DNA of 51,908 nt from Basidiobolus meristosporus CBS 931.73 (lineage: Eukaryota; Basidiobolomycota; Basidiobolomycetes; Basidiobolales; Basidiobolaceae). The stretch's first letter is position 1, and each line of letters opens with the position of its first letter. The stretch is from assembly GCA_002104905.1 (NCBI GenBank), contig MCFE01000625.1, positions 1-51,908 of the forward strand, in the 5' to 3' direction. Positions 7,316-51,908 of this stretch are shown one piece after another. The notes beneath the pieces are model-generated. The model made no database searches. It was not told the origin of the DNA and was given only the letters and a program-made list of their open reading frames with translations. A program made the position numbers and the translations under genes.

Positions 7316-7615
7316 CGTTCTAAGGAGCCCTCGCCGCTGTCGCGATGCTTAAGTACTTGGAATCTCATCATAAACCTTTACCCGAATACAATGTTTAATC
7401 CAGCATAGCTGAATGAAAGACAAAATGCGTAAATCGGCAAAGCTTCTCAAACATGGAAATAATCGATTGCATGGAAGATTGTGTCGCACCATTTGTCTCA
7501 TCCCAGCAAATCCGATTTCTTTCCGAGATTGGCTGAGTATTCTGGTTCGTTGGCCAGAGATCAGTATGCATGGAGTATGTATGAATGCCCGCCAATTCAA
7601 CGGGAGCTGGCCGCA

Positions 7616-23000: not shown

Positions 23001-23550
23001 TAGTACGGTTGGAGTCTTCTAGACGGCCTCTTCCACGGGCCTCCATCTCGGGGGAAATAGGGTAGGTTTCGTTCTCCTTGAGGCTCAGGCCAGGGATACT
23101 AGAGTAGTCCTCGGGGCTATTCTCAGTTATGAAATAGATTTTTAGTCCAGGGATTGCTTCCTCAAGAATCTTTGCGGTCTGCTCATATTGGGGGTGGACT
23201 ATCAGGACATCCGCTTTTCCATCTTTTAGGAGATGAGTCAAAGCATCCACCGAGTTCTTTGTGCTCAGTTGCAGTGCAACAGCTCGGGCCCTGATCAGGG
23301 AGAGCACCAAGGCACAGTACTCCACACAATTGGAAGAGAGGATCCCGACCACCGTGTTCTCTGTAATTGGTATATCAAACGTTTCCCACAAGTGAAAGGC
23401 GTTGTATATGGACATATCTCTAAGCTGCTTATAGGTGACCATGTGCTCTTTCTGTTGAGCATCTGTGTGGATGATGGCCGTATTGGACGCCATCTTCCTG
23501 GCGTAATGGTCTAGTAGAGTGTTGAAATCGTTGAATTGGACACTTGGCAT
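20079..23550 (-). pseudogene. NRPS-like adenylating reductase (A-T-T-R), copy 1, frameshifted in the reductase domain
   Basis: Single-exon, about 1156 codons. The adenylation domain (start ATG 23550, MPSVQFND) carries IMYIHTSGSTLFPK (P-loop-like A3), YGMTETSG (A5), HTGDIF (A7-like) and a late GNIARKK lysine motif. Two tandem carrier domains follow, each with a phosphopantetheine serine in GMDSIAAME, and then a thioester-reductase (NAD-binding) domain with ILMTGASGYLAIHV and the YSRSK motif. Such proteins activate a carboxylic acid, hold it as thioester and release it as aldehyde or alcohol. The frame breaks at about 20812, where a run reads CAGCAGCAGCATG against CAGCAGCGCATG in copy 2; one extra base moves the last 250 codons out of frame. 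The rest is intact. Either a recent pseudogene or an assembly error. Confidence 0.85.
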
Positions 23551-23592
23551 TCTGATTGTTTAATGTTTGGCACTCCATCGCCAAACACCGCA

Positions 23593-23599
23593 TTTTATA
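23593..23599 (-). promoter_or_regulatory. TATA box of reductase copy 1
   Basis: TATAAAA on the minus strand, 43-49 bases upstream of the ATG at 23550, a spacing similar to that in the subtilisin and secreted-peptide genes of this window. Confidence 0.5.
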
Positions 23600-24706
23600 T
23601 TGGTTCTTAGGTGCGTCACCCATGCTACGACGCGCCTGAAGTAGCATAGTCCTCGGCGGAACTGGAAAAACTAATCGGTCCTTTGTAATGCCAGGATGGG
23701 GAGGCATAATCATCCGTGTTTCGACCTTAGTTGTCAAGATGGTACCCTCGCTTACATTCGATGCAATTGATTCGGTCGTGCGGTGCGTGTATGGTGACTC
23801 AGTTTATCCACATGTATACATTTCATTCAGGGGCCTATTCTCTTCATCGGAAATGCAAATATGAATAGTGCATTGCCTGATACCCCTGAGAACCCATTGT
23901 TAGGAGAACTTGGATTTTGCAGCAAGCACCTGAATTCGATACGCGTACGATTACCTAATGAAACCCCATACTTGCTTCACCTGACATCGGATTTAAATTT
24001 CTCCCGAGACTCTTCTATCCTCGATGAGAAGCTGACATTCATTGCCATTAATAACTATTAGTAACCGTTAATAAATCGTCACAAGCAAATCCTTCAGAAA
24101 CCAGGATTTCAGATTCCCGATAGGCGGGTCACGAATTAATAGAAGAAACTAGGAGTTACTGATGCTGGTCCTTGGTTATCAGCATCAATCCATCTGTTCA
24201 CACTAGGCAGAAGAAGGAGGAGCTCCATATCAATGTTATGGAGGCTGGGGATGAGGTAATTATTACATGGATCCATGGCGCGTGAATACCCAACGTACAA
24301 CACCCACTTTACCATTGCAAAGAGAGTTGATTGGAAATCAGGCTGATGCTTTGATTGATGGCTATATCTGAGTTACACCTGATTCTTGTGAAACATGTAC
24401 TGCTTGATTAGGGAGTAACTGTGATGCCCAAATCGCTCCATTCGATAGGTCACTTCATGACTTTGTAGGTTCAGTTACTAGATTTACGCCCTTATTCGTG
24501 ATAGATATGATGTCAAGGCCCTGACATGCCAGCTACAAATAATCATGATTGTAGTCAAGTAATAGGTTCGGGTTGGGTTCGGGTTCAGTCAAGCTCGGAC
24601 TTCAGTTAGGTTTTATTATCTCATTATTACATACAAAGAATTGTTAGGCCAGTGTTAACTGTAGAATGTTGCTTGACTTGTATATTACAGTTGATAAGCT
24701 GGAGGG
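23600..24706. other. Spacer between the two reductase copies, no gene
   Basis: About 1.1 kb. A 66-codon plus-strand frame at 23861-24061 has no recognisable features. A short GGTTCGGGTT-type repeat lies near 24567-24590. Nothing else is supported. Confidence 0.4.
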
Positions 24707-27700
24707 CTAATGGAAATCCGATTCGTCCAGAAATCCGATTTGTCTCCAATAGTCAAGATAACTGGAGATCAATGTCTCGTTGATAGTGGGGCATTCCTTG
24801 GCTAATGTTACGGAACGATCACAAGTAACCTCGGTATCCAGCCGGCCAAAGGTGGTCGCCGAAGGTGAGCTCGCCATCTTCTCCAAAAACGGCAATAGAG
24901 TTAGAATGGGATCATCAGGTTTAAGACCGTTCTTCGTTTGGGTGAGCTTCAATAGGTTGGTCCACCATTCCTCCATAGACATCATCTTGATCTGGCGACC
25001 AGTGAGGTTGCCAACATATCCAATGAGCTCACTCCATGACTCAGCTGGGTGTGGATTCACCTCGTGGTAGACTGAGATGCTCTCATCTGGTTGCTTTTGC
25101 CGGGTAATCAGCTCTACCAGACTCTTGGCTCCGATGTTCACCGGAATCCAATCAGTGGGTAGGCTCATCATTGGTGACACCCCAGTCTTGATAGCGTTGC
25201 GGATGAGAATAGGGAACTGCTCGCGAGTATTCCAGGCTCCGGTCGTGCTGTTGCCTGATATCTGGCCATATCGAAAGATTGTCACCGGCAACCCTTGCTG
25301 GGCCATTCTGACCAGCGCCTCCTCTGCGACCAGCTTTGACCTGCTGTATCCATTTGGCATTGCAATGCGGATATCTGGTGGGTGAGGGGCCTCGGGGATC
25401 AGGGACCTCGAGTCAGCAGCGCATGCACCAATGCTCGATATGAATATGTACTGCTTGGGCGCAAGTCCAGACACTGCGAATTTCGCTAGGTTCAGGGTCG
25501 GGGGTAGGCAAGTGGGCTCGAACGCCTCAAGGTTCGAGTTGAAATCCATTCTCCAGGCCCCATGGTAGATGTGGGTGACATTCTCCCTCAAATGGTTGAA
25601 CGTGGCCTCGTCTAGGCCAAAGTGGGCATCACTCAGGTCACAGGGGAGCACCGTGAGCCTGTCCTCATTAGCCAGCAGCACCTCCTTGCTCAGGTGGAAG
25701 TGGTCGAACGCCCCCTCGAGTTTTCCTCTCGACGCATCCGCGCTGTCCCCACGAATCAAGCAGTATACGTGATCGACCTCGTTGTTCAGTAACAGCTCGT
25801 GGATTACGTGGATGGCCAGATACCCAGAGGCTCCAGTCATCAGGATGCTCATTCCAGCCGAGTCATGAGGTGACTGCTTGGCTCCGAATGGACCGATATC
25901 CTTGAGGGTGTACTTGTCGACAAATCGCTCAAAGTAGGCGTCAAGATCCTCAACATCATCCTCAGCCCCATTCTGGGTCTTGGCTGCGTTGGAAGCGCGA
26001 ACCAAATACTCGGTGAGTGATTGGATGGTTGGATATTCGAACACTAACGAGTAGGGAAGGGTGAGGAAGCCGAACCTCTTCGAGATCACACTGCGGAACT
26101 CCATGGCTGCAATGGAGTCCATCCCGAGATCTACGAGGGATGAGTCATGGTTCGCGAAGTGTTGCGCACTCACATCGAGTATCCTCGCAATGCTGGTCTG
26201 AAGGAATCCTCGGATATTCTCCGGCTCCACGACTGCCTCCTTCGCAATGGTGAAGATGTGCCAGCCCAGGGCCTGGATGGTTGCGTTGTCGAAGATGGAA
26301 GCAAAGGCGAGTTTGAGCTCAGGAATCTGAGCCATGATTCTGCCGTGGAGCTCCATCGCGGCAATCGAGTCCATCCCCATATCAATGAGGGATTTGGAGT
26401 GGTCACTGAACAGCTCAGCGGGCTGATTGAGGATCTCCGCAATGGTTTGTTGAATGAAGCACTCGATGGAACCAGGATTGATCACCATTTCTTGAGAACG
26501 ACCTGACTTTGTGTCGCCCTGTTGGTACAACTCCTCAATCTCCTTCTCGTACTCGATCAAGATCTTTTTGCGAGCAATGTTCCCTTTGGCCGTGCATGTA
26601 AGGGCTCTACCTGGGGGCAGGATGTAGATCATATTTCTACGTATTCTGGAGTGCTTGGGAATCTGTTGATTAATATCATGGGTTAGGCTTTGAATCAATT
26701 GAAAAGCGCCTTCGCGATATTTCTCCGAAGATAGCTCCACCAGCAAGCAGGTGCCAGATCTATTCGAGCCTAGGATAGCGACGTTGTTGAATTTTCCTTT
26801 CCCTTCAGCCATCAACTGCTTCTCAATGGTAGTGGCCTGGTCTTCTCACCATTGCTGTGCACAAGGATATCATCGTATCTTCCTTTGTAAAACCATTTGC
26901 CGGAACCAGCAGGGGTTTCAACAAAGATGTCACCAGTATGGAAAGCACCAGTTTTGGGATTGATGGGAAGGGAAGGGGCCAGACAAGGATCTTCCTTGAG
27001 GAAAACCATCTCCTTCTCTCCCTCAATACCTCTATTGGTAGAAAACATGTGGTTTCCGGATTGACAGGCATCAACAAATTCCATTCAGGCTTTTCAGCCA
27101 TTAGCACGATTCCAGAAGTCTCTGTCATTCCGTACATTGATACCATATGAACATCTTCCTCTACCAGCCTGGTGGCGATTTGCTCCGAAAAAGCTGCACC
27201 ACAAACTATGATCATATCTAGGTTTCTCAGCATCTGGTATACCGTGGGGTCCTCCTCAGCTGTGAAGTAAATCTGCTCCAACATCCATGGAACAAGCAAC
27301 AAAACGTTGGGATGGTATTGCCGTATCGTTTTGACCAGGTTATTACCGGTTGGGACGAAGGTACCTGATGCAGATGGAGGGATGACGAAAGTCGCGCCAT
27401 AGTAGATGATTCTAATGAACTCGCATAAAGTACCAGCCGCATGGAATAATGGCAGAAAGCCGCAGGCGATGCTTTCGGAATTGATCGGGATTGCCTGGGT
27501 GCATTGGATACCAGTGATTATCTGCCGACTCCCTTGAGCAATTAGTTTAGGGAACAATGTACTGCCTGATGTATGCATGTACATTATAATTCTATTAAAA
27601 TCCTCAGGGCGGCTCTTGACGAGCGACTCTACTTCCGCGGGGATTGCATACACCTGATTTGTCTTGGGAGCCAAATTAGGAAGGGAAGGGAAATCGTCCA

Positions 27701-28136
27701 TCGCACTCTCGGTCAAGAGTAGTATCTGAAGATCGGGCATTGCCTTTGCGATCAATCTGGCTGTCTCGATGAACTGCGGATGGACAACAAGAATGCTTGC
27801 TTTGCCTTCCTTCAAAAGATGGATCAATCCCTCAGTAGAGTTTTTCGTACTCAAATTCAGCGAAAAAGCCCGTGCCCTGATTAGGGAGAAAAGCAGCGTA
27901 CAATATTCAATACAGTTTGGGGCCAGTATTCCCACCATGGTATCCTCTGAGATCGAAATACCGCATTGATTCCACAGCTGTAGCGCATTGTAAATAGTTA
28001 AGTCTCGGAATTGCTTGTAAGATATCCGCTGCTCCTCCCCTTGAGCGTCGGTGTATATGAGCGCAGTTTTGGAGCCCAGTTTCTTGGCATAACAGTCTAG
28101 TAAAGTGTTTAAATCCTTGGATTGGATACTCGGCAT
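24707..28136 (-). pseudogene. NRPS-like adenylating reductase (A-T-T-R), copy 2, two frameshifts in the adenylation domain
   Basis: Same architecture as the copy at 20079-23550: adenylation (MPSIQSKD start at 28136, YMHTSGSTLFPK, YGMTETSG), two carrier domains with GMDSIAAME serines, and a complete reductase domain through to its stop at 24707. Two single-base losses, each in a G run, disrupt the adenylation domain: near 27040 (after CFLPIE) and near 26829 (KTRPLP followed by a shift before AEGKGKF). Restoring two bases would give 1144 codons. The 5' adenylation part is only moderately similar to copy 1, yet about 1.7 kb from the end of the adenylation domain into the reductase is almost identical, which indicates gene conversion or a mosaic duplication. 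Its lesions are at different positions from that of copy 1. Confidence 0.85.
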
Positions 28137-28168
28137 TGTTACGCTGGCTGCTTATCGATTCCTGCCAC

Positions 28169-28177: not shown

Positions 28178-30047
28178 ATTATGTACTGCCCCAACACCAC
28201 GGTTCCCCCCCCCCCCTTGAATCTATTTCAGATCTCACAAATCAAACATTGGGAGAGGAAATCTTCCACATCGCCCTTGCTGATCTGTGGAATAGGATAA
28301 ACTCACCGGACCTAAGTCAAAAGACCAGAGTGTGTTATCAGTTGCAGTTTTGGACATACATCTAGATCCACCCTAGGGAGCTGATCCCCTTATGGATTAC
28401 TTAGAATATTCCTAATGGTTATCATCCCTTTTCTGTCTGAATGCCATCTACACCCACTTTTTATTCAGCTACGAAGGCCTCTGGCGATGTTAGGATTTTA
28501 GAGCCTGATAACTACTACGGCATCGTATGCGGAATGATTTTCGTACCGAGATAACGGATAAACTTAACCTTCCGAATGCAGTTGTTTTGAGTTAATAAAT
28601 CGACCAATGATATGGGATATATATCACAATCACGCCAATTGTTACAGCCATGTGTTGCGGTAGGGATGAAACATGTGCCACGTGTTTTTGGGATATGGGA
28701 GACCAACTTTAAATCATCCACTGTTTTGCGATAGGAAATCACCATATCTGCAATCATCAGGCAAGTAAAATCTTTATTCCAGGCATCCAATAGTCTCAGT
28801 TTCAACTTCGTCATCAACCAATGTATATTGGGCATACTACTGGTCATCAGATGACCTACCCAGTCGTGCTCTGGATTTATTCATCTGCGGTATTTACCTG
28901 CCAAACTAATTAATTCCAACCCGTTGCTGACTCCCAGTTACCCCGCTCGGATCTTACCATACCCGTCGAAAAGCATCTGGTGAATCCTGGATATCTACAT
29001 GCTTTTCGTGGTAATACAACACTATTGCAATGTACAGGCAACTTGTATATACTTCCGGTAAATCTCCAAAGCGTTATAAGTACAGAACCTTCTACCATCA
29101 TCTGTTTTGGGAACTCCGTATTACCGCCCCGTCAGCATTGTCAATGCATCATTAATACTTTCGAAAATTCCATGATTTTCTTGGTGCCCGTTCGTTTGCA
29201 GGCTTTCGATGACAAGGTTAGTTACCAGTATGTGCCTACCACCTTTCTATTCCGATTACGAATGGTAAGAGACAACCGCGATTTGCTGTTGTGGAAAATG
29301 GCTGCTGATAGCGCTTCCCAGCTGAATCCATGCTCACCTAAAACTTCCATTTCAAGTGGGCAAGCTACACATCGAAGAGGATAGTTATCCGGCCGATATG
29401 GTCTCAGGAGTAGGATACATGTATGTTCACCCAGGGATAAAGGAGTCATTTCTCTACACCGCTCTCCAGATGGTGATGATCTGTAATGGTGATGGAGTTG
29501 ATATTGTGTCATGGGCCACAAGCCTCATGGTGGAGCATTGAAACGGCGCACTTCCTACATCATTCAAGATCAGCAAACGTTGCCAAAGCGAAATCCGCGC
29601 ACGTGATGTCGAACATTATGGCATGCATTGGAATTCGTGATATCACGAATTGAACGATTTCGGACTCAGTTGTAATCATTACAACATCGTTGGGGATAAA
29701 TCCAGATGAGTGCAATCATAGTGATGGGCGTTAGCCAACTATACCAGCACTACGCTTCGAAATAAGATCCAGCCTTATATTCAACCTTATAATCGCATAC
29801 CCTTATATTCAACCTTATAATCGCATACCCTTATATTCAACCTTATAATCACATACCACAGACCACATTCTGGATCCAGGAGAAACGGCTAATTGAGAGC
29901 CCAAATGATCGAGCATTGGGACAATTCCACGCTTAGTAGGTCGCTATTCCATGATATTTCGCGAGATTCGATCCATTAATTGTGTATTGTTTATTGGAAT
30001 GGGGAAATATGTTACATTGGGGTATTTAATTTACGGTTTATGCTATC
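28178..30047. other. Gene-poor spacer
   Basis: About 1.9 kb with only short frames (28515-28847 minus, 28980-29384 plus, 29222-29521 minus), none with recognisable domains. It contains the 28-bp triplet repeat listed separately. I see no RNA gene. Confidence 0.4.
29773..29856. repeat. 28-bp tandem repeat, three copies
   Basis: Three head-to-tail copies of a 28-bp unit beginning CCTTATATTCAACCTTATAA (29773, 29801, 29829); the third differs by one base (cac for cgc). Each unit itself holds two CCTTATA half-repeats. Simple satellite, no evident function. Confidence 0.9.
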
Positions 30048-42030: not shown

Positions 42031-43027
42031 ATGCATGGCAACTCAACATATTAGAAAATTTTGGGAAAGCAAAAGCAATACTCCGCATGATTCAAAGCCC
42101 ATTGGTTCTCTTCCTCAAAGTAACATTGCTTGGTTTATCCAGATGGGAAGACACGCGAGTTATACAGTAGAAATAATCAACCAATTTTGGCTACAATGTG
42201 AGAAAGTGAAGGTACACTAAATAGTTGGCACCTCTATACTGGTGTGATATGACTTGATAAGTGCTACTTGATGGGAATCTTTTCTTTTTGAGAGATAATG
42301 ATGCTTACTACTGCAGATGTATTTGCACAACAAATTTTGGGATACTGATAATTTATCCAGCCACATATGTTTGCGAAATGAATTTGGCTAGTGCTACACA
42401 TTTAGACAGGATTACAGTCAAGTCCCCAATCAGAGCCACTGGGAAAATCATTGTAGATGGTAATTATCTGCTAAGGCTGCGGACCATGACTAAATCCATA
42501 GCTATCCCTGTGAAAAATTGCAAACTTGGAATTCATCTGATTATCAGCTGGTTTTCAGCTGGTGTTTTTCCTTCTGATTTTCAGTTGCAATTTGTGATAG
42601 AAGTAGCAAGCAGCCAATTACCCAATTTGTTATGAGTGCTAGTTGGCCTTGTTTTGTCCTGGAAAATATGTCTGCTTGACTGTCCAATAGCTAGTACCTG
42701 CAATATTGATAGTAGACAGTTTTGAGAAACTTGGAATTCAACTGAAATCATGCTGGTATTCCACTGGTGTTTTGTTAAATTTTTTTCTTATGATATGTCT
42801 TGACCACAGTATGGAATATCAGACCATGGCTTTCTGATGGTAAAACTAGGCACATCTAGAGCTTGGCATCCATCACTCTGATTGATGTACAGTCTGGCTT
42901 ATTCAAAGACATAGCAGGACTGAATACTTTAAGTAAGGTAACTAGTATCTCTTCAGGTAGAAAGACCACAGTATGAGGGCAAGTATGCAATGCTCAAAGC
43001 CAGTTCAGATAAGGCAGTTGCATCAGG
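42031..43027. other. Subtelomeric sequence before the retroelement array, no supported gene
   Basis: A 124-codon frame (42261-42635 plus) has no recognisable domain and AT-rich codon use. The boundary with the array at 43028 has no TTAGGG on its left, only a GGGGAGGG run. Confidence 0.4.
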
Positions 43028-43037
43028 GGAGGGAAAG

Positions 43038-43053
43038 TCACCAAGGTAGGTGA
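43038..43053 (-). other. Shared 3' terminal hairpin, gag-only copy A
   Basis: TCACC-AAGGTA-GGTGA on the plus strand (RNA: UCACC, 6-nt loop, GGUGA). Preceded in the transcript by AAAUAAAGAUU and followed by CUUUCCCUCCCC. Confidence 0.7.
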
Positions 43054-43151
43054 AATCTTTATTTGATTTCAGACAAGTCTAACTACAAATAAAGAAGCCA
43101 GCTGGGAATAGAAGATTCCCAAAGTAAACACTAAGTTGAATATGAATAAAT

Positions 43152-43880
43152 CTAAGCTAAAGTTAAGGCAGTATCCCAGAGTACACTGGGGTTCAGGTTT
43201 ATGGGGGAGTGAAGTAGATAAGCTTGAGAGATATAATAATCTTTTAAGAAGTGGGTGACAGCAGGTGAAGGGGAGTTTTTGATAAGTGAAGTGAATCTTG
43301 AGATCAGAGATTCCTCTAATGAGAAAGTCTTGTAAACTGGAGAATCAGGAAACTCTTTAAAGGCATGGTCAGAAGGTTCCCAGTAAAACTGGTCAGAGGC
43401 GTTTTGAGAGAATTCTTTAGCAATACTTTTGTCAAGTACTACCTCAAGAGTGTGATGGTTGATAAATCTCATGTTGACAATCTTGGATAAGTTGTAACCT
43501 TGTTCCTTGAGATACATCCTACGCTCAGATATAGGAATAAACTCCACATTGGCAAAGTAGCAGACAGCCCAGTCAGTAGCAGGAGGCAAATCAGAAGTGG
43601 CAGGAAACTTTCTTTTGGTCTTGGGAGGAGCAGCAGGATGTCTTGAAGAAGCAGGAAGAGGCTTTTTGACAACTTCAGAGTAGGAAGAGTGAGCAGGAGC
43701 AGATGATTCTTGGGGAGTCTTGTTGGCAGGAAGAGTTGGCACAGGGACAATAGATTCTTGCAGATCAGAGAAGGAAGAAAAGAGCTTTTGAACTTGTTTC
43801 TTGAGTAGAGCATTTTCAGCTTCAACAAGTGCAAGCCTTTCCTCAAGGAAAGAAATCTGAAGGGAATGGAGTGAAGGCAT
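43152..43880 (-). CDS. Gag-like coiled-coil protein of the gag-only element, copy A, 242 aa
   Basis: The ATG at 43878-43880 begins MPSLHSLQ; the frame upstream of it lacks another ATG. The N-terminus is a leucine-heptad coiled coil (LEERLALVEAENALLKKQV), then a Pro/Ser/Lys-rich linker with SYSEVVKK, then a ~150-residue domain starting DLPPATDWAVCYF and ending PSVLWDTALTLA. That domain aligns in order with the C-terminal part of the LINE ORF1 at 48449-49165: PPAxxWxVxY, PIS, SRIVN/SKIVN, LEVxLDxxIA, FLKxxxIS. The family is not a standard RRM or CCHC gag. It probably binds element RNA and assists reverse transcription in trans; this is inference from its relation to ORF1. The zinc ribbon of the LINE protein is absent. 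Confidence 0.7.
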   Translation of the reverse strand: MPSLHSLQISFLEERLALVEAENALLKKQVQKLFSSFSDLQESIVPVPTLPANKTPQESSAPAHSSYSEVVKKPLPASSRHPAAPPKTKRKFPATSDLPPATDWAVCYFANVEFIPISERRMYLKEQGYNLSKIVNMRFINHHTLEVVLDKSIAKEFSQNASDQFYWEPSDHAFKEFPDSPVYKTFSLEESLISRFTSLIKNSPSPAVTHFLKDYYISQAYLLHSPINLNPSVLWDTALTLA

Positions 43881-44052
43881 AAGAAATAAGAAGAAGAGGG
43901 TAAGATGGGGTGGGTGAGAGGGAAAATTAGCAGGGAGAAGAGAAGGAAGGAGCAAAAATTCCAGAAGTCAGAATTTATAGATGGATGGACAAGGGTAGAT
44001 GAATGGATTATTCCTGGGTTAGGAAAATTAGCAGGGAGAAGAGAAGGAAGGA

Positions 44053-44067
44053 GGGTTAGGGTTAGGG
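44053..44067 (+). repeat. Interstitial telomeric repeat
   Basis: GGGTTAGGGTTAGGG between gag-only copies A and B. Confidence 0.95.
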
Positions 44068-44075
44068 AGGGAAAG

Positions 44076-44091
44076 TCACCAAGGTAGGTGA
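44076..44091 (-). other. Shared 3' terminal hairpin, gag-only copy B
   Basis: TCACC-AAGGTA-GGTGA, next to TTAGGGAGGGAAAG. Identical to copy A. Confidence 0.7.
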
Positions 44092-44189
44092 AATCTTTAT
44101 TTGATTTCAGACAAGTCTAACTACAAATAAAGAAGCCAGCTGGGAATAGAAGATTCCCAAAGTAAATACTAAGTTGAATATGAATAAAT

Positions 44190-44918
44190 CTAAGCTAAAG
44201 TTAAGGCAGTATCCCAGAGTACACTGGAGTTCAGGTTCATGGGGGAGTGAAGTAGATAAGCTTGAGAGATATAATAATCTTTGAGGAAGTGGGTAACAGC
44301 AGGTGAAGGGGAGTTTTTGATAAGTGAAGTGAATCTTGAGAGCAGAGATTCCTCTAATGAGAAGGTCTTGTAAACTGGAGAATCAGGAAACTCTTTAAAG
44401 GCATGGTCAGTAGGTTCCCAGTAAAGCTGGTCAGAGACATTTTGAGAGAACTCTTTAGCAATACTTTTGTCAAGTACTACCTCCAGAGTGTGATGGTTGA
44501 TAAATCTCATATTGACAATCTTGGATAAGTTGTAACCTTGTTGCTTGAGATACATCCTATGCTCAGAAATAGGAATAAACTCTACATTGGCAAAGTAGCA
44601 GACAGCCCAGTCAGTAGCAGGAGGCAAATCAGAAGTGGCAGGAAACTTTCTTTTGGTCTTGGGAGGAGCAGCAGGATGTCTTGAGGGAGCAGGAACAGAC
44701 TTTTTGACAACTTCAGAGTAGGAAGGGTGAGCAGGAGCAGATGATTCTTGGGGAGTCTTGTTGGCAGGAAGGGTTGGCACAGGGACAATAGATTCTTGCA
44801 GATCAGAGAAGGCAGAAAAGAGCTTTTGAACTTGCTTCTTGAGTAGAGCATTTTCAGCTTCAACAAGTGCAAGCCTTTCCTCAAGGAAAGAAATCTGAAG
44901 GGAATGGAGTGAAGGCAT
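44190..44918 (-). CDS. Gag-like coiled-coil protein of the gag-only element, copy B, 242 aa
   Basis: Same length and architecture as the protein of copy A, with about a dozen substitutions (for example SSFSDLQ/SAFSDLQ, SERRMYLKEQ/SEHRMYLKQQ, NASDQF/NVSDQL) and no frame disruption. Two intact frames in independent copies, with substitutions that are often conservative, argue that the gag-only frame is maintained by selection rather than being a chance remnant. Confidence 0.7.
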   Translation of the reverse strand: MPSLHSLQISFLEERLALVEAENALLKKQVQKLFSAFSDLQESIVPVPTLPANKTPQESSAPAHPSYSEVVKKSVPAPSRHPAAPPKTKRKFPATSDLPPATDWAVCYFANVEFIPISEHRMYLKQQGYNLSKIVNMRFINHHTLEVVLDKSIAKEFSQNVSDQLYWEPTDHAFKEFPDSPVYKTFSLEESLLSRFTSLIKNSPSPAVTHFLKDYYISQAYLLHSPMNLNSSVLWDTALTLA

Positions 44919-45072
44919 AAGAAATAAGAAGAAGAGGGTAAGATGGGGTGGGTGGGAGGGAAAATTAGCACGGAGAAGAGAAGGAAGGAGCAAAAATTCC
45001 AGAAGTCAGAATTTATAGATGGATGGACAAGGGTAGATGGATGGATTATTCCTGGGTTAGGAAAATTAGCAG

Positions 45073-45089
45073 GGTTAGGGTTAGGGGGG
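45073..45089 (+). repeat. Interstitial telomeric repeat
   Basis: GGTTAGGGTTAGGGGGG between gag-only copy B and SINE copy 1; the last G run is extended to six. Confidence 0.95.
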
Positions 45090-45610
45090 AGGAAAGTCAC
45101 CAAGTGGTGAAATCTTTATTTACTTATGACAAGTATCCAAAGAAGCCATGTTAATCTGAAGTAATTCCTAGAAAGCTAGGTCTGAGGGATATCTTCCTGG
45201 TAAGCCAGGTCTGAGAGTTGAGAAGCTGAGTGGTACTGTATTTCCTAGTTAGCTAGGTCTGAGAGAGGTTTCCTGGAAAGCCAGGCCTGAGAAGTGAGAA
45301 TCTGAGTATATCTGAGGTGAGTTGTACTGATTTGCGGTAGCTGATTTGTGGCCAGAATGGCCAGTAGACTGGGGGAACTGAGGGTATTTCTGGGCGATCA
45401 CTGGCCAAATTTACTAGGCAAATCTGACCAATTAGCATTTCAAGGATTTCAGCCAATCAGAGCCTTTACTTTGCCCAATGGTTGATCAAGCCATCTCCCA
45501 ATGAGCACACATCAATTTATTAATCAAATTTTGCTGGATCCAGGATTTGAACCCACTACCATGGGTATGGAAGGGTTAGGGATAACCACAAGGCTAAGTG
45601 TTCTTGGTTC
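45090..45610 (-). mobile_element. Telomeric tRNA-headed SINE, copy 1 (oldest)
   Basis: 521 bp. On the minus strand: tRNA-like head with an A-box-like TAGCCTTGTGG and B box GGTTCAAATCC, a unique middle, four small hairpins, and the shared 3' module (hairpin 45097-45110). It differs from copies 2 and 3 at many positions, including CpG to CpA changes (GGCCAGAATGGCC here, GGCCGGAATGGCC there), so it is older. No protein is encoded; a 67-codon frame at 45253-45456 is not conserved. Confidence 0.82.
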
Positions 45611-45625
45611 TTAGGGTTAGGGGGG
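45611..45625 (+). repeat. Interstitial telomeric repeat
   Basis: TTAGGGTTAGGGGGG at the 3' junction of the LINE. Confidence 0.95.
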
Positions 45626-45631
45626 AGACAG

Positions 45632-45645
45632 TCACCAACAGGTGA
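45632..45645 (-). other. Shared 3' terminal hairpin, LINE
   Basis: TCACC-AACA-GGTGA on the plus strand. The stem is the same as in the gag-only elements and SINEs while the loop differs. Confidence 0.7.
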
Positions 45646-45679
45646 AATCTTTATTTCAGTTGAAACAAAGAAGCCAGCG

Positions 45680-48448
45680 CTACTGTTGTAGCTTTGATAC
45701 AAGAGTGTGTAGCTGAGGGGAATTTGTAGGTAAGTTAATAAGAAGTGATGATAGTTCTTCAGTGCTCAAGACACTGTTCAGTGGGAAGGGGGGTAGCAAG
45801 AGAGGTAAGAATGACTTGTGAACAACATTAATGAGGGGAATGTGATAAGGATTGATATTCATCATAAAGGGAGTGTGCTGCTGCAGATATTGCTGCCAAA
45901 GGTCTGTCAAGTACTTCAGGTAGGCCAGCTTGGGTTTTTCTGACTGCAGAATATAGTGTGCAAACTTCTTGACTTCAGGATCTCCAAGTATAGTTCTCCA
46001 GCAGGAGTCAGGTGTTGTGTGGTGTGTTCTCTTCCAGGCCTTAATCAGTGGGTTGTTGCAGTTGTGAAGTCTGAGGTATAATCTGGTTCTAAGGTAGAGA
46101 AGTCTGATCTTATAGGGCATAAACCCAAAAGCACCAAGAATAGCATGTCTGTAGGGGCATTCAGGCAAATGAGGCACCAAGGAGGTAATGCACCATACTG
46201 CAAACTTGTCAAGCTTAGTGCAGTCTCTAGAAGTAAGAGAGAGAAGTGGTAAGCCAAATTCCAGGACAGGGAAGACAAACTGCTTAAGTAGAAGGAGGCA
46301 GCTGGGAGCTGAAGTTGTAGGAGGAGTAACAGCCAGTAGCTTGTGGAGTGCCTGTCTTGCCAGGATAATTCTCTTCTTCAGGTGTGCTCCAGAGTCTAGT
46401 CCAGTAGGAAGGAAAGGAAAGCCAAGATATGTAGCAGAAACCTGAGCAGGTAGAGTGGAGTTCTGCAAGTTGATGGGAGAGCCCAAAGGTACTGTCTTTG
46501 CAATGGAAAGCTGGAGATTATTCTTCTGCAGATACTGGTGGATGGTCTGGGAGTCTTGTTGTACATTGGAGGAGGATATTCTGATGTCATCAGCAAAGAG
46601 AGTAACCAGGCAGTCAGCTGAGAGTCTTGGGAAATCATTCAGGAAGATGGCAAACAGTATAGGACCAAGCACAGAGCCTTGAACCACTCCATTAGGAACT
46701 GAGAACACAGCTGATTGCTCACTTGGGTGCAGAATTCTTGCTTGTGGATCCAGAAACAGAGACCTGACAAGGAGGGTGAGAGAGGTAGTGGAGAAGCATT
46801 GCAACTTGGACCAAAGCAGATTTCTGTCAACTGAATCAAAGGCCTTAGTAATATCAAACAGAACAGAGGGATACTTGCACTGGAGAGAGTGATCTTGGCT
46901 AAGTATGACTGCATATTCCAAGGAGAGGCCAGGAACAAAGCCAAACTGTGCAGGATGAAACTTGAGGGAGTCAGAGTAGAGCTCCTGAGCAAGCAGAAGC
47001 TCAAACACCTTTCTGCAGGTGGGCAGCAGAGATATTGGCCTGTAGGAGCTAGGATCCAGGTGCTTTCCTTTACCCTTGTACAGTGGCAGAACATTTGCAA
47101 AGGACCATTCCTCAGGAGTAGAAAGCTGGGCTGAGCATTGCTGAAACAGTGGAAGCAGAAGTGCAGACATGGCCTTGGTACTAGTCTTCAGAAGCTCATA
47201 GGAGATTGTGTCCACACCTGGAGCAGTAGAGTTGGGAAGCCTCTTGAGCACATTATGGATTCTCCTTTGATCAAGTGCAAGTGGGATGGGCAGAGTCTTG
47301 AAGTCAGGATGAAAGCCAGGAGTTGAGTACTGCTTTGTAGAGAAGAAGATGTTAGCCAGCTGTTCTGTTGAAGGTAACTTCCTGGAAGAGGGCCTCATTG
47401 CCCTGTAGAGTCTTGATACTGTTCTTGTTATAGAGTTGGAAGATTGCAGAGGCAAGGAACTCATAATATGATCCCAGAGCTGAGTATGCAGAGTGTGGTG
47501 AATTGCCTTGGAGTGGTGTATTGCTGTCAGGAGGAGTTTCTCTGTTTTTGGGTTAGGGAAACTCAGGTAGCTTTGTTGCAGGGCTGAAACAATGGATTCC
47601 CATTTTCTTGAGGTAACAGCAGTAGTCTTGCATGGCAGTGAGAGGGAGGCAGACACCAGAATCAGATGCTTCACAAAGAGCCAGGCATAGTTGAGATCAT
47701 CTGGCAGAGAAAGTAGCAAACTGGCAAGCTTCAAGTAGTTCCCAAAGTCTTTCTTCTGATTCTTGGTAGCTTTGTGGGTGAGCACAGTAAGTTTTGGCAG
47801 CTTCTTCTTCACAACTGGTTGCATAGAAAGGGACCAGGCTGGGTGGTCAGAGGCTCTCAAGGATCCTAGCTCAGCTCCAGAGAATTGCTTAACTTCATTC
47901 ACAAAGTAGAGGGCAGCAGCAGAAGGGCAGATCCAGTCAACACATCTTTTCTCAGATTGAGCACCTAGTGCTAGCAGGTGGCTTTCTCTCAGGAAGTTCA
48001 GTAGGAATGTAGACCTTGGCTTCATTCTTGCAGTCAGAGTAGTCTTGTTCTCAGGATGGGGAATGTTGAGATCTCCAAGCAAGATAACAGGTGTTGATAT
48101 AGATTGTTGGTATTGCTGAACCTTCTGGCATATAACTTGCACTTCCTGAAGGGCAAGACTTGGAGGCAGATAGCAGAGCACCAGACTGATAGTTGGCAAC
48201 TGGAGAGCAGCACAGTAAGGGGAGTAAAGAGGAACACAGAGCTGAGGAGTATTGATGGTAGAAGAGATGAAGCAGATAGAGGAGGTATTCTTTGTTCTAG
48301 GAGTAGAAAAGCAATATAGATTAGTCAAAAGTATAGAGGGTAGCTGGACATCAATCAAACACAGGAGGGAAAATCTTGAAAGAAGTCTCTCTAGAGTTGG
48401 TCTTGATGGCTGTATGCTGTTGCAGTTAAGCAACAGAACTTCAGGTAG
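45680..48448 (-). CDS. LINE ORF2: APE endonuclease and reverse transcriptase
   Basis: Open from directly after the ORF1 stop (48449-48451) to 45680, about 920 codons. The N-terminal endonuclease has NCNSI (metal-site Asn), LLGDLN (GDxN), DWI and SDHPAWS (SDH) in order; the usual QE glutamate position reads ID. The reverse transcriptase has SYRPISLL, FDITKAFDSV, GVVQGSVLGPILF and the catalytic FADD. There is no RNase H, and no CCHC knuckle is evident. No AUG occurs in the first ~130 codons, and the frame is the same as that of ORF1, so translation is probably by readthrough or reinitiation. Function: nicks DNA and reverse transcribes element RNA. Clade not assigned; the APE nuclease separates it from the RLE-type telomeric MoTeR elements of Magnaporthe. 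Confidence 0.9.
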   Translation of the reverse strand, partial: LPEVLLLNCNSIQPSRPTLERLLSRFSLLCLIDVQLPSILLTNLYCFSTPRTKNTSSICFISSTINTPQLCVPLYSPYCAALQLPTISLVLCYLPPSLALQEVQVICQKVQQYQQSISTPVILLGDLNIPHPENKTTLTARMKPRSTFLLNFLRESHLLALGAQSEKRCVDWICPSAAALYFVNEVKQFSGAELGSLRASDHPAWSLSMQPVVKKKLPKLTVLTHKATKNQKKDFGNYLKLASLLLSLPDDLNYAWLFVKHLILVSASLSLPCKTTAVTSRKWESIVSALQQSYLSFPNPKTEKLLLTAIHHSKAIHHTLHTQLWDHIMSSLPLQSSNSITRTVSRLYRAMRPSSRKLPSTEQLANIFFSTKQYSTPGFHPDFKTLPIPLALDQRRIHNVLKRLPNSTAPGVDTISYELLKTSTKAMSALLLPLFQQCSAQLSTPEEWSFANVLPLYKGKGKHLDPSSYRPISLLPTCRKVFELLLAQELYSDSLKFHPAQFGFVPGLSLEYAVILSQDHSLQCKYPSVLFDITKAFDSVDRNLLWSKLQCFSTTSLTLLVRSLFLDPQARILHPSEQSAVFSVPNGVVQGSVLGPILFAIFLNDFPRLSADCLVTLFADDIRISSSNVQQDSQTIHQYLQKNNLQLSIAKTVPLGSPINLQNSTLPAQVSATYLGFPFLPTGLDSGAHLKKRIILARQALHKLLAVTPPTTSAPSCLLLLKQFVFPVLEFGLPLLSLTSRDCTKLDKFAVWCITSLVPHLPECPYRHAILGAFGFMPYKIRLLYLRTRLYLRLHNCNNPLIKAWKRTHHTTPDSCWRTILGDPEVKKFAHYILQSEKPKLAYLKYLTDLWQQYLQQHTPFMMNINPYHIPLINVVHKSFLPLLLPPFPLNSVLSTEELSSLLINLPTNSPQLHTLVSKLQQ

Positions 48449-49958
48449 TCAGGCAGAGGTTGTAGCTTCTTCAGAGGCAGCATTGACAATGTGACCTGCA
48501 GAGTCCCAGAGCTCTTCAAATGGTGCATCACTTAAGTCAGCAAGGAGGGAAATGGCATGATTCTTGAGGAAGTATGCCACATCATAGGAGGGGGCTTGTC
48601 TCTTGATGGCAGCAAAGAAAGACAGAATGGCAACATGGGCTGGAGGCTTGTTGAACAGTAGAGAGTCAGAGGATTCAGATTCTTCAGGCACTATCTTGAA
48701 GTCAGTTTTCAGCCAGTTAAGGTTCTTCTCCACAAAGGCAACAAATGGGTCAGCAATGTTTTGGTCTAGGATAACCTCCAGAATCTTCCCTTTTCTCCAG
48801 GCCAGGTTGACAATTCTTGAGAGCTGAATATTGCATGCCTTGAGTGCTTTCCTGATGTTGGAAATGGGAGTCCAGGGAACTTGCTTCAAGTACACCACAG
48901 TCCAGGTAGAAGCTGGTGGTAGGTTTGCTGGGGGCTTGTAAGTCCTTCTGTGTTGCAATGGAGCTGCAGTAGTCAGATTGGAGTCCACATTCTCAGTAGA
49001 AGGTTTTCTTGATGTGTCTTGCTGAATAGTACTGGAGCTGGATGTGCTGATAATTCTTGCTAGAACCTTGCCTGCATAAGTCTGAGGTATAGCTGAGGTG
49101 ACTGTAGAGGTGGTGGCAGCTGGTGCAGGTGGAGAGGCAGAGACTGAAGCAGGAACTGAGGTCACCTGGGAGAAGGCAGTAGGAAGCAGGTTTTCTGGGA
49201 GGAACAGAGTTCACTATCCAGTTGTTCTGTAAAACACTGGAGTAGCTTTTCTGTGGAACAGGATCTTGCTCTTGAACAGGAACAGAAGCAGGAGGCTGGG
49301 GCTGAGCAGTAGTGGTAAGGCAGTGGCACTCCAAGGAAGCTTTTTGCAAGGCATCTCTGGCAGTTTTCAGGGCAGTATTGGCTTCATTCTTGAGCTTCTT
49401 GCATTGGGCATCCAGTCTCTTGTTTTCAATAGCCAGGGCAGTATTGGCAGCCTCTAAATCAGCAATTCTCTTCTCAATTGCAAGGAATCTCTGAAGAAAT
49501 GCATCAGTAGAAGTGCTGGCATCTGGGAGAGCAGTGGCAGGAATAGAGTCCATTGACAGTGGGCTTCTTGGAGGCAAGGAAAGTGGACTGGCAGATTCAG
49601 GCACAAAAGGAGATATCCTGGCAGGAGGAGAAGGAGTATCCAAGGCAGTAACAGAGGCAATTCTTGTTGGTGAAGCAGCAGCAGGGGAGGCAAGCCTGTT
49701 CAGAAACTGGGCAGGAGAGAGTGCTTGAGGAGAGGGAGTCTTCAGCTTGCCAAGCATGTCTTCCATCAGAGTGATACCAATATTCCTGGTGCATTTGCAG
49801 AGAAAAGTAAGCTTCCTGAGTCTGCCAGCTCTTCCATTCCTTCTGATAGTTCCTTTGTTTCCACAGTTGGGGCAAGAAATCTTCTTGACAGACTTGTCAA
49901 AGCAATCAAGAACCTTCCTTTCAGGTGTAGTGGGCTCCTGTTGAGGTTTTGGTGGCAT
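48449..49958 (-). pseudogene. LINE ORF1: zinc-ribbon, coiled-coil gag-like protein, one frameshift
   Basis: From the ATG at 49958 (MPPKPQQEP) the frame encodes a four-cysteine ribbon (C-x2-C-x21-C-x-C, residues about 29-56, with TIRRNGRAGR between), Pro/Ser-rich linkers, a coiled coil (IEKRIADLEAANTALAIENKRL) and SYSSVL. The gag-like C-terminal domain (PPASTWTVVYLKQ to LWDSAGHIV), related to that of the 242-aa proteins at 43152 and 44190, is in another frame, open from about 49213 to the TGA at 48449-48451. The change of frame must occur between 49213 and 48993, and the total is one base more than a multiple of three. It is either a 1-nt indel (decay or error) or a programmed +1 shift; a CCC-AGA-AAA stretch near 49195 lies in the window where it could occur. 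Confidence 0.75.
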
Positions 49959-50027
49959 ATCCAGAGTTTCAGCTTCAAATTTCAATTTTTGAGATTTTTG
50001 GGTGATTTTTGATGGGCGGGATCAAAA

Positions 50028-50041
50028 TTAGGGTTAGGGTT
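50028..50041 (+). repeat. Interstitial telomeric repeat at the LINE 5' end
   Basis: TTAGGGTTAGGGTT directly abuts the LINE leader, so the LINE is flanked by telomeric repeat on both sides. Confidence 0.95.
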
Positions 50042-50282
50042 GCGCGCTGTGACTGCTTTTTACGATCGCAAGGTCAGATCCTAGGAAAAAATAAAAATAG
50101 TTAGTAAAGGTGATTTAATGGATGGATGGATGGATTCGGAGTCAGATTCAATCAAAAAATCAAATCGTTGACTAATTTAAAGAGGAAAAAATAAAAATAG
50201 TTAGTAAAGGTGATTTAATGGATGGATGGATGGATTCGGAGTCAGATTCAATCAAAAAATCAAATCGTTGACTAATTTAAAG
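50042..50282. repeat. Fragment with a 100-bp tandem duplication
   Basis: A 41-bp unique start is followed by two exact copies of a 100-bp unit (50083-50182 and 50183-50282) that begins AGGAAAAAATAAAAATAGTT and contains a GATGGATGGATGGATT tract. A similar GATGGATGGA tract sits in the leader of the gag-only elements. It is probably the 5' leader of another telomeric element, perhaps a promoter array; alternatively a local satellite. Confidence 0.75.
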
Positions 50283-50283
50283 A

Positions 50284-50294
50284 GGGTTAGGGGG
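50284..50294 (+). repeat. Interstitial telomeric repeat
   Basis: GGGTTAGGGGG at the 3' junction of SINE copy 2. Confidence 0.85.
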
Positions 50295-50371
50295 AGGAAA
50301 GTCACCAAGTGGTGAAATCTTTATTTACTTATGACAAGTATCTAAAGAAGCCAAGTTAATCTGAAGTTATT

Positions 50372-50490
50372 CCTAGAAAGCTAGGTCTGAGAGATATCTT
50401 CCTGGTAAGCCAGGTCTGAGAGTTGAGAAGCTGAGTGGTACTATATTTCCTAGTTAGCTAGGTCTGAGAGAGGTTTCCTGGAAAGCCAGG
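50372..50490. other. Cluster of four 5-bp hairpins with a covarying base pair (SINE copy 2)
   Basis: CCTAG-AAAG-CTAGG (50372), CCTGG-TAAG-CCAGG (50401), CCTAG-TTAG-CTAGG (50449) and CCTGG-AAAG-CCAGG (50477). The fourth stem pair alternates A-T and G-C with both partners changed, and each is followed by TCTGAG or CCTGAG. The same four are present in all SINE copies. Confidence 0.8.
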
Positions 50491-50749
50491 CCTGAGAAGT
50501 GAGAATCTGAATATATCTGAGCTAAGTTATACTGGTTTGCGATAGCTGAATTGTGGCCGGAATGGCCAGTAGACTAGGGGGAACTGAGATGAATTTCTGG
50601 GCGATCACTGGCCAAATTTACTAGGCAAATCTGACCAATTAGCATTTCAAGGATTTCAGCCAATCAGAGCCTTTACTTTGCCCGATGGTTGATCAAGCCA
50701 TCTCCCAATGAGCACACATCAATTTATTGATCAAATTTTGCTGGATCCA

Positions 50750-50803
50750 GGATTTGAACCCACAACCATGGGTATGGAAGGGTTAGGGATAACCACAAGG
50801 CTA
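50750..50803 (-). promoter_or_regulatory. Internal Pol III promoter (A and B boxes) of SINE copy 2
   Basis: The A-box-like TAGCCTTGTGG (50793-50803) matches TRGCNNARYGG at 10 of 11 positions, and the B box GGTTCAAATCC (50750-50760) matches GGTTCGANTCC at 10 of 11. GTGGTTA follows the A box as in a tRNA D loop. The anticodon and acceptor stems are not well formed, so this is a tRNA-derived head, not a tRNA gene. A telomere-like CCCTAACCC sits between the boxes. Confidence 0.75.
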
Positions 50804-50814
50804 AGTGTTCTTGG

Positions 50815-50823
50815 TTAGGGGGG
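50815..50823 (+). repeat. Short telomeric junction between SINE copies 2 and 3
   Basis: GTTAGGGGGG-type junction; only about one telomeric unit remains. Confidence 0.8.
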
Positions 50824-51345
50824 AGGAAAGTCACCAAGTGGTGAAATCTTTATTTACTTATGACAAGTATCTAAAGAAGCCAAGTTAATCTGAAGTTATT
50901 CCTAGAAAGCTAGGTCTGAGAGATATCTTCCTGGTAAGCCAGGTCTGAGAGTTGAGAAGCTGAGTGGTACTATATTTCCTAGTTAGCTAGGTCTGAGAGA
51001 GGTTTCCTGGAAAGCCAGGCCTGAGAAGTGAGAATCTGAATATATCTGAGCTAAGTTATACTGGTTTGCGATAGCTGAATTGTGGCCGGAATGGCCAGTA
51101 GACTAGGGGGAACTGAGATGAATTTCTGGGCGATCACTGGCCAAATTTACTAGGCAAATCTGACCAATTAGCATTTCAAGGATTTCAGCCAATCAGAGCC
51201 TTTACTTTGCCCGATGGTTGATCAAGCCATCTCCCAATGAGCACACATCAATTTATTGATCAAATTTTGCTGGATCCAGGATTTGAACCCACAACCATGG
51301 GTATGGAAGGGTTAGGGATAACCACAAGGCTAAGTGTTCTTGGTT
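50824..51345 (-). mobile_element. Telomeric tRNA-headed SINE, copy 3
   Basis: 522 bp, as far as I can read identical to copy 2 at 50295-50816, including the 3' hairpin (50831-50844), the four internal hairpins and the Pol III boxes. Identical adjacent copies point to a very recent tandem duplication or two recent insertions of one source. Confidence 0.85.
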
Positions 51346-51362
51346 AGGGGAGGGTTAGGGGG
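51343..51362 (+). repeat. Telomeric junction between SINE copies 3 and 4
   Basis: GTTAGGGGAGGGTTAGGGGG, a slightly imperfect two-unit telomeric stretch. Confidence 0.85.
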
Positions 51363-51684
51363 AGGAAAGTCACCAAGTGGTGAAATCTTTATTTACTTAT
51401 GACAAGTATCTAAAGAAGCCAAGTTAATCTGAAGTTATTCCTAGAAAGCTAGGTCTGAGAGATATCTTCCTGGTAAGCCAGGTCTGAGAGTTGAGAAGCT
51501 GAGTGGTACTATAGTTCCTAGTTAGCTAGGTCTGAGAGTGGTTTCCTGGAAAGCCAGGCCTGAGAAGTGAGAATCTGAATATATCTGAACTAAGTTATAC
51601 TGGTTTGCGGTAGCTCAATTGTGGCCGGAATGGCCAGTAGACTGGGGGAACTGAGAGGAATTTCTGGGCGATCACTGGCCAAAT
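51363..51684 (-). mobile_element. Telomeric SINE, copy 4, truncated at its 5' end by the telomere
   Basis: About 322 bp of the 522-bp element: the 3' module (hairpin 51370-51383), the four hairpins and the middle are present, but the tRNA-like head is missing. It stops at GGCCAAATTTA, where intact copies continue CTAGGCAAATC, and the TTA is shared with the start of the terminal TTAGGG tract. Confidence 0.88.
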
Positions 51685-51908
51685 TTAGGGTTAGGGTTAG
51701 GGTTAGGGTTAGGGTTAGGGTTAGGGTTAGGGTTAGGGTTAGGGTTAGGGTTAGGGTTAGGGTTAGGGTTAGGGTTAGGGTTAGGGTTAGGGTTAGGGTT
51801 AGGGTTAGGGTTAGGGTTAGGGTTAGGGTTAGGGTTAGGGTTAGGGTTAGGGTTAGGGTTAGGGTTAGGGTTAGGGTTAGGGTTAGGGTTAGGGTTAGGG
51901 TTAGGGTT
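51683..51908 (+). repeat. Terminal telomere, (TTAGGG)n
   Basis: About 37-38 perfect TTAGGG units run to the end of the window, G-rich strand 5'->3' toward the chromosome end, as expected of a telomerase-made fungal telomere. Confidence 0.99.

Follow-up and report, generated by a model that had tools for sequence, protein, structure and literature searches.

Telomere-bound LINE, gag-only and SINE elements of Basidiobolus meristosporus and their possible part in chromosome-end growth

How can a chromosome end that is capped by TTAGGG repeats also carry a one-way series of retrotransposons joined through short pieces of the same repeat? The question is raised by contig MCFE01000625.1 of Basidiobolus meristosporus CBS 931.73 (assembly GCA_002104905.1; 89.0 Mb in 1311 contigs), the whole of which, 51,908 nucleotides long and here also called C897, is the window analysed in this work. 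The terminal 8.9 kb of the window holds a minus-strand array (43030-51684) of seven elements, namely two gag-only elements (GAG1), four short interspersed nuclear elements (SINEs) and one long interspersed nuclear element (LINE1), which was mapped by direct reading and BLAST and gives way to 224 bp of terminal TTAGGG repeats (Table 1). From the inside outward the order is GAG1, GAG1, SINE, LINE1 and three SINEs, the outermost shortened, followed by the telomere. A sequence-only reading of this region had described the same seven elements and had placed all 3' junctions but the innermost in TTAGGG repeats; both points were confirmed, as TTAGGG is present at six of the seven 3' junctions. The innermost junction, CATCAGGGG followed by AGGGAAAG (43021-43030), contains CAGGGG only, without TTAGGG. 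The interstitial motif TTAGGGTTAGGG was found in 0 of 100 shuffles of the window. We consider it probable that these elements belong to a LINE-driven, telomere-specific group of non-long-terminal-repeat (non-LTR) retrotransposons which lengthens chromosome ends by serial terminal attachment, beside telomerase. The attachment of a LINE and its partners would then be a second, retroelement-based route of chromosome-end growth.

Position and orientation of the elements across the assembly

Counted in the whole assembly with at most two mismatches, the 3' modules of the elements occur 860 times for LINE1, 470 times for the SINE and 262 times for GAG1, and the reversed patterns of these modules gave zero matches in the assembly at the same tolerance. 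Position and orientation were scored among the matches listed (the first 100 places per search). The sizes of the remaining contigs were interpolated from 53 known ones, assuming that the numbering follows the text order of size-ranked names; all known sizes fit this interpolation, which totals 89.33 Mb, and one later size was 69,561 against a predicted 70,073. On contigs above 40 kb, every listed module had its 5' side toward a nearby contig end, at most 18.3 kb away for LINE1 (41 of 41) and the SINE (53 of 53) and at most 16.4 kb away for GAG1 (90 of 90); likewise, 79 of 81 junctions between open reading frames 1 and 2 (ORF1 and ORF2) of LINE1 lay no more than 20 kb from the end faced by their 5' side. 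On contigs above 30 kb, 40 of 41 copies of LINE1 ORF2 were within 20 kb of an end and all 72 copies of a second LINE (LINE2) within 25 kb. Contigs no longer than 40 kb, on which position is hard to judge, were left out of the former counts (59 LINE1, 47 SINE, 10 GAG1 and 19 ORF1/ORF2 among the places listed); there, 50 of the 59 LINE1 and 43 of the 47 SINE modules were nearer to the end they faced. The counts themselves concern contig ends, and a terminal TTAGGG tract was present at 24 of the 27 contig ends read. The telomere linkage and single orientation claimed in the sequence-only reading are borne out by these counts.

Copies at internal sites or in both orientations, which that reading had named as grounds against itself, were found to be few. 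Of the two LINE1 ORF1/ORF2 junctions outside the 20-kb limit, one lies about 23.6 kb deep on contig C669 (an estimate) and the other belongs to an inverted interstitial LINE and SINE pair, which occupies 54400-60199 of C726, about 10 kb from the contig end; in addition, a LINE module at C355:154766 points away from the nearer contig end. The 3' side of the inverted pair adjoins other DNA and its 5' side lies near a copia-like integrase region (PF25597), and an interstitial relic and a rearrangement are suggested as alternatives for its origin. Interior and inverted copies of this kind would be in keeping with dispersed elements that inserted at random and survived at the ends, the interior copies being removed by selection or by the assembly process, but such a survival bias yields neither a single orientation nor a 3' junction locked to the GGG of TTAGGG, and we attach hardly any credence to it. 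A gradient of age among LINE2 copies, with the older ones deeper, is weak (Spearman -0.36, p 0.04, n=32; on contigs of known length only, n=10, p 0.14).

Two further observations concern the contig ends. Exact words of three TTAGGG units occur 8002 times in the forward and 103 times in the reverse direction, and contigs nearly always have the telomere at the right, which is probably an assembly or orientation effect; despite this bias, element arrays facing left ends also occur. At the right end of contig C424 (L071, 626-4873), a copia-type element with an open frame of 1416 aa (RVT_2, 2.5e-84) lies on the opposite strand inside a telomeric LINE1 copy.

Junctions, stubs and truncation points

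The manner in which the elements are joined was read from 158 sequence-distinct 3' modules, mostly from SINE- or GAG1-bearing loci, of which 155 had a classifiable tail; at least one junction (on C748) was counted twice, as two loci overlap there. TTA, a G-run and the tail follow one another at 119 of the 155 junctions, and 21 of the other 36 have xTA and a G-run; this is the form that a G-rich 3' end acting as primer would give, as the earlier proposal had it. The length of the G-run depends on the tail: at TTA-preceded junctions it is 4 for the AGGGAAA tails of GAG1 and LINE2 (32 of 40), 6-7 for LINE1 (26 of 32) and 5-7 for the SINE (37 of 47), as expected from the copying of a C-run of fixed length. 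Genome-wide, TTAGGG lies within 6 bases of 479 LINE1 modules (at least 56% of the 860, a figure from a looser count), and in all 67 listed strings of this kind further Gs come next and TTA in none.

An inner flank of at least 200 bp was available for 155 junctions, and the inner element was identified in 124, being truncated in 85 and full-length in 39; among the truncated ones, 11 are GAG1 copies that stop at a single recurring point, probably the true GAG1 5' end. The stub in exact telomere phase has a median of 7 bp on truncated and 8 bp on full-length inner elements, with a maximum of 32 bp, the 31 junctions with other inner DNA not being used. The raw tract between elements has a median of 9 bp over the 124 junctions, and some tracts carry non-telomeric filler. 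At the 24 of 27 ends mentioned above, the terminal TTAGGG tract has a median of 210 bp (range 146-271). AGGG is wholly absent at 3 distinct mapped junctions among the 124, and attachment takes place also at ends without TTAGGG.

The points at which inner elements are cut off overlap with the telomere phase. From 69 distinct truncation points 15 with imperfect tracts were removed, and the remaining 54 were set against a like-for-like control in which the free G-run was taken into account. Zero overlap was seen at 11 of the 54 points, against 50% in the control (p 6e-6), and an overlap of at least 2 bp at 30 of the 54, against 21% (p 4e-8); the truncation points show 1-3 bp of microhomology above chance.

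Arrays of this kind might also have spread chiefly by copying between ends, through break-induced replication or unequal exchange and with little transposition. Exchange of that kind has been reported for the MoTeR arrays of Magnaporthe oryzae, in the part of PMC7367193 consulted, the second and third SINE copies of the window are identical, and full-length SINE junctions are found again on several contigs. Yet 167 physical junctions on 54 contigs yielded 149 distinct 40-bp flanks, only 7 of which are common to several contigs, and these are all full-length ends, five of the SINE and two of GAG1, whose recurrence is expected anyway. No truncated flank of this sample recurred on another contig, and every truncated junction in it is therefore an event of its own. 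Copying between ends is largely refuted for the sampled junctions and, as a general account, seems very improbable.

The LINE enzyme, the families and their shared 3' module

The reverse transcriptase of LINE1 ORF2 is recognised by Pfam (RVT_1; Table 1), whereas its two endonuclease matches are weak (3.1e-4 and 0.011), both being under the curated cut-offs. In an alignment of LINE1 ORF2 with relatives and outgroups, the endonuclease columns D126, N128, D171, D201 and H202 are nearly invariant, and a further column has E in 4 outgroup rows and D in the 3 LINE1-group rows that reach it. The profile of this alignment, outgroup LINEs included, matches LINE-1 ORF2 and AP endonucleases. Five metagenomic relatives are 48-80% identical to LINE1 ORF2, and 45 of 49 scored genomic copies (out of 1382 candidates) have no internal stop, so that many copies appear intact. 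By these features LINE1 can be classed as a non-LTR retrotransposon of the apurinic/apyrimidinic endonuclease (APE) type, as the sequence-only reading had held, with a reverse transcriptase and a predicted APE-type endonuclease in ORF2, and the endonuclease looks intact. A LINE1 with a dead endonuclease, in which the catalytic E had apparently become L, was considered and rejected, because the alignment places D at this column and the remaining catalytic columns are retained.

The endonuclease bears on a further way of reaching the same arrays, in which an enzyme of the TRAS/SART kind nicks TTAGGG after GGG and the element enters the telomere by ordinary target-primed reverse transcription, the repeats being lost later. 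Nicking of telomeric repeats would be compatible with an endonuclease that looks intact, its region is kept in the relatives and in the 45 scored copies, and junctions fixed at GGG fit such a phase-lock. The stubs of about 7-8 bp do not fit when real tracts measure about 210 bp, nor do the few junctions without any AGGG; random nicks in a 210-bp tract would seldom leave stubs so short, unless contraction followed. Because the endonuclease is kept, we rate insertion of this type as unlikely rather than negligible.

The expression of LINE1 ORF2 may depend on its junction with ORF1. In the window ORF1 is split over two overlapping frames, whereas in a different copy it is a single open frame of 523 aa; ORF1 and ORF2 share one frame, with one TGA and then CTA between them (48449-48451), and ORF2 lacks an early Met, the first being found only after the GDLN motif. 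Readthrough of this stop is a candidate means of expressing ORF2, and the TGA-CTA context is said to favour it. A 27-mer spanning the stop has 139 exact genomic copies, against 145 for the adjacent 20-mer, but this conservation carries little weight because the LINE1 copies are too young; one relative (P0001) begins with Met at the position of the boundary. At the other end of the element, a 5' terminus at 50024 with a junction at 50028 was considered and rejected: copies on two other contigs have TTAGGGTTAGGG and the 100-bp monomers in identical places, and the motif at 50028-50039 with its two 100-bp repeats is thus part of the 5' untranslated region (UTR).

The sequence-only reading had spoken of a family of three tiers, which proved to be an undercount, since the genome contains at least five families: LINE1, LINE2, GAG1, GAG2 and one SINE. 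GAG2, a second gag-only family with frames of 285-298 aa, and LINE2 (RVT_1, 1.3e-21) come from other chromosome ends, and LINE2 is absent from the window. In the LINE2 search 89 copies were scored, with identities from 100% down to 71%; an open frame of 949 aa is given in 15 rows, in one of which the match itself contains a stop, and stops occur in many of the older copies. A fragment of LINE2 is 52% identical to LINE1 over the part compared. A GAG1 relative in Basidiobolus ranarum (50% identity over 60%) suggests that the system predates B. meristosporus.

In all five families the 3' end is built alike: AAATAAAGATTTCACC and a loop come first, then GGTGA, and the element closes with a short tail of the family's own and a C-run. 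For the typed 3' tails a hairpin is predicted (z -1.9 to -3.9), whose stem is invariant and therefore draws no support from covariation. SINE and LINE thus share a 3' tail with a predicted hairpin, as in the stringent LINE/SINE pairs. When one representative per family was compared, with slightly different cut lengths, the GAG1 tail was nearest to that of LINE2 (score 70), and the SINE tail scored 63 with LINE2, 60 with GAG1 and 58 with LINE1, a small margin given single representatives cut unequally. The earlier suggestion that the LINE serves its gag-only and SINE partners stands in part: the shared 3' ends suggest that a LINE enzyme could mobilise GAG and SINE RNAs in trans, but the SINE and GAG1 tails look somewhat nearer to LINE2 than to the LINE1 of the window.

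The 5' ends have features of their own. The SINE head contains an exact B box of the RNA polymerase III (Pol III) type (7 of 20,000 shuffles) and an A box with one mismatch, and neither ARAGORN nor Rfam found a tRNA in it. A telomere-like motif lies close to the 5' end in LINE1, the SINE, GAG1 and GAG2. GAG1 5' ends (e.g. on C505, C351 and C110) carry a 101-bp monomer in variable number, up to about ten, which resembles the promoter monomers of other LINEs.

Table 1. Features of the array at the telomeric end of the window
Feature	Position	Strand	Remarks
GAG1 copy A1 (gag-only, innermost)	43030..44055	-	97% to A2; open frame 43152-43967, 271 aa
Interstitial TTAGGGTTAGGG, A1/A2 boundary	44056..44067	+	
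GAG1 copy A2 (gag-only)	44068..45074	-	open frame 44190-45005, 271 aa
Interstitial TTAGGGTTAGGG + GGG, A2/SINE1 boundary	45075..45089	+	
SINE copy 1, full length	45090..45609	-	96% to SINE copy 2
Interstitial TTAGGGTTAGGG + GGG, SINE1/LINE1 boundary	45611..45625	+	
LINE1 including 5' UTR monomers	45626..50284	-	direct reading, BLAST, copies elsewhere
LINE1 ORF2: predicted APE-type endonuclease region and reverse transcriptase, 922 aa	45680..48448	-	RVT_1 4.2e-26
LINE1 ORF1, two overlapping frames; TGA then CTA, in frame with ORF2	48449..50021	-	
LINE1 5' UTR: telomere-like motif 50028-50039, two 100-bp monomers 50083-50282	50028..50282	-	same layout on two other contigs
Interstitial TTAGGGGG, LINE1 5' end/SINE2 boundary	50287..50294	+	
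SINE copy 2, full length	50295..50816	-	Pol III-like boxes in head: B exact, A one mismatch
SINE copy 3, full length	50824..51345	-	100% to SINE copy 2
SINE copy 4, 5'-truncated, telomere-capped	51363..51684	-	direct reading, BLAST
Terminal TTAGGG tract, 224 bp	51685..51908	+	repeat search

Elsewhere, the window encodes a nitrate-reductase-like protein with molybdopterin, Cyt-b5, FAD and NAD domains (4907-7348), a chitin-synthase/GT2-like protein with 77-78% identity to proteins of B. ranarum, and two adjoining, very similar genes of the AMP-binding/PP-binding/NAD_binding_4 (reductase) type (20079-28151), which represent a tandem duplication. Three repeats of a 28-bp unit (98%) lie at 29773-29857.

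Proposed terminal attachment beside telomerase and comparison with known systems

Two adjacent stretches matching PF12009 (Telomerase_RBD), taken as TERT exons, were found on contig C880 with 40.5 and 34.7 bits, above the cut-off, one of them containing an in-frame TAG when translated in six frames. As the sequence-only reading had supposed from the repeats, the genome is one that keeps TTAGGG telomeres, together with a predicted telomerase gene. In the proposed course of serial terminal attachment, the element RNA would end in the shared module (AAAUAAAGAUUUCACC, a short loop, the GGUGA hairpin and the family tail) and then a short C-run, and the LINE reverse transcriptase would recognise this module. 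The primer would be a chromosomal 3' end, either that of a very short telomere or that of a break which left G or a partial TTAGGG at its end, and the RNA would be copied outward from it, so that the 3' ends of the elements would come to face the centromere. The new end would be capped by telomerase or receive the next element, and repeated loss and re-healing would leave 5'-truncated elements about one telomere repeat apart. Priming by the end itself, combined with loss and re-healing, is the simplest account and would explain the orientation, the one-repeat stub, the joins without TTAGGG, the microhomology and the independence of the events.

Several points weigh against serial terminal attachment. 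The APE endonuclease is retained, although a mechanism confined to ends would not need it, and the inverted interstitial pair on C726 exists. Raw tracts exceed 24 bp at 10 of the 124 junctions, one of them being 57 bp of nearly pure repeat. Healing by telomerase alone, with the element joining later, predicts identical microhomology, and the evidence for the system is that of the sequence. A bolder variant can be advanced tentatively, namely that the element RNAs carry their own telomere template, the 3' C-run and UAA pairing with 3' ends that show G or a partial TTAGGG. The five families would then be 'long-template telomerases', healing ends that are eroded or broken and competing with telomerase or backing it up. 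Such a template would explain why a single repeat is usual at the junctions and why the G-run there is specific to the family.

The origin of LINE-maintained ends, as in Drosophila, from telomerase-maintained ends is a long-standing question. If serial terminal attachment is true, B. meristosporus would offer a natural system in an early-diverging fungus, in which the same ends are extended by telomerase and by LINE reverse transcriptases, with gag-only elements and SINEs as hangers-on. With 860, 470 and 262 recorded 3' modules in three families, more than 1,500 in all, the transition from telomerase to LINE should be testable in this genome.

Among fungi, the closest counterparts are the MoTeR elements, which form head-to-tail arrays at chromosome ends with the 5' end outward. 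The consulted passages of PMC7367193 describe (TTAGGG)n from half a unit upward between elements, telomere seeds on truncated copies (17 of 23), a partner that is non-autonomous and has both ends in common with MoTeR1, and telomere-like repeats at the 5' end; the partial repeats, seeds and layout seen here are similar. In the same passages MoTeR1 is CRE-like and has a restriction-like endonuclease, and one LINE and one partner (MoTeR2) are described, with no SINE, whereas in Basidiobolus the LINE is of the APE type, and two LINEs, two gag-only families and a SINE occupy many more ends. The FoTeR elements of Fusarium oxysporum are, in the portion of PMC12857005 consulted, telomere-only, with 5' tandem repeats and asymmetric telomeric junctions as here; they differ in a restriction-like endonuclease and in having 3-7 repeats at the 3' side where the Basidiobolus elements have about one, and the words 'SINE' and 'non-autonomous' are absent from the text of the paper. 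LINE1 falls outside the MoTeR/FoTeR group in that its predicted APE-type region is N-terminal to the reverse transcriptase, and no motif search for a restriction-like domain was made.

Outside the fungi, the comparison extends to HeT-A, TART and TAHRE of Drosophila (PMC5537684) and to TRAS and SART of Bombyx and Tribolium, named in the consulted part of PMC10088271. The arrays of B. meristosporus are terminal and head-to-tail, with the 3' end toward the centromere. Terminal addition in this sense also characterises the Drosophila elements, among which gag-only HeT-A stands beside members that bear a reverse transcriptase. Drosophila is without telomerase or short telomeric repeats, its elements have oligo(A) 3' ends and no SINE is known to accompany them. 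Sole maintenance of ends without telomerase does not apply here, given the Telomerase_RBD stretches on C880 and the terminal TTAGGG tracts. TRAS and SART resemble LINE1 as APE-type LINEs in the telomeric repeats of telomerase-type genomes. They insert at nicks into long repeat tracts and have poly(A), whereas short stubs, a C-run tail and gag-only and SINE partners are found here.

In the open-access literature, neither a fungal group of APE-type telomeric LINEs nor a telomere-specific SINE was found described among the matches listed, as far as their available text goes, and novelty is not proven because the search was confined to open-access sources. The fungal example in a 2023 paper on telomeric retrotransposons is MoTeR1 (PMC10088271, in part), and the consulted part of a genome paper on Entomophthora, in which data of B. 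meristosporus are used, has no passage with SINE or non-LTR. The stringent LINE/SINE pairs share a 3' tail hairpin, as here; they are not described as telomeric in the consulted part of PMC4176376, whereas the Basidiobolus pair is telomere-bound and may serve studies of end priming and of how a 3' tail is recognised.

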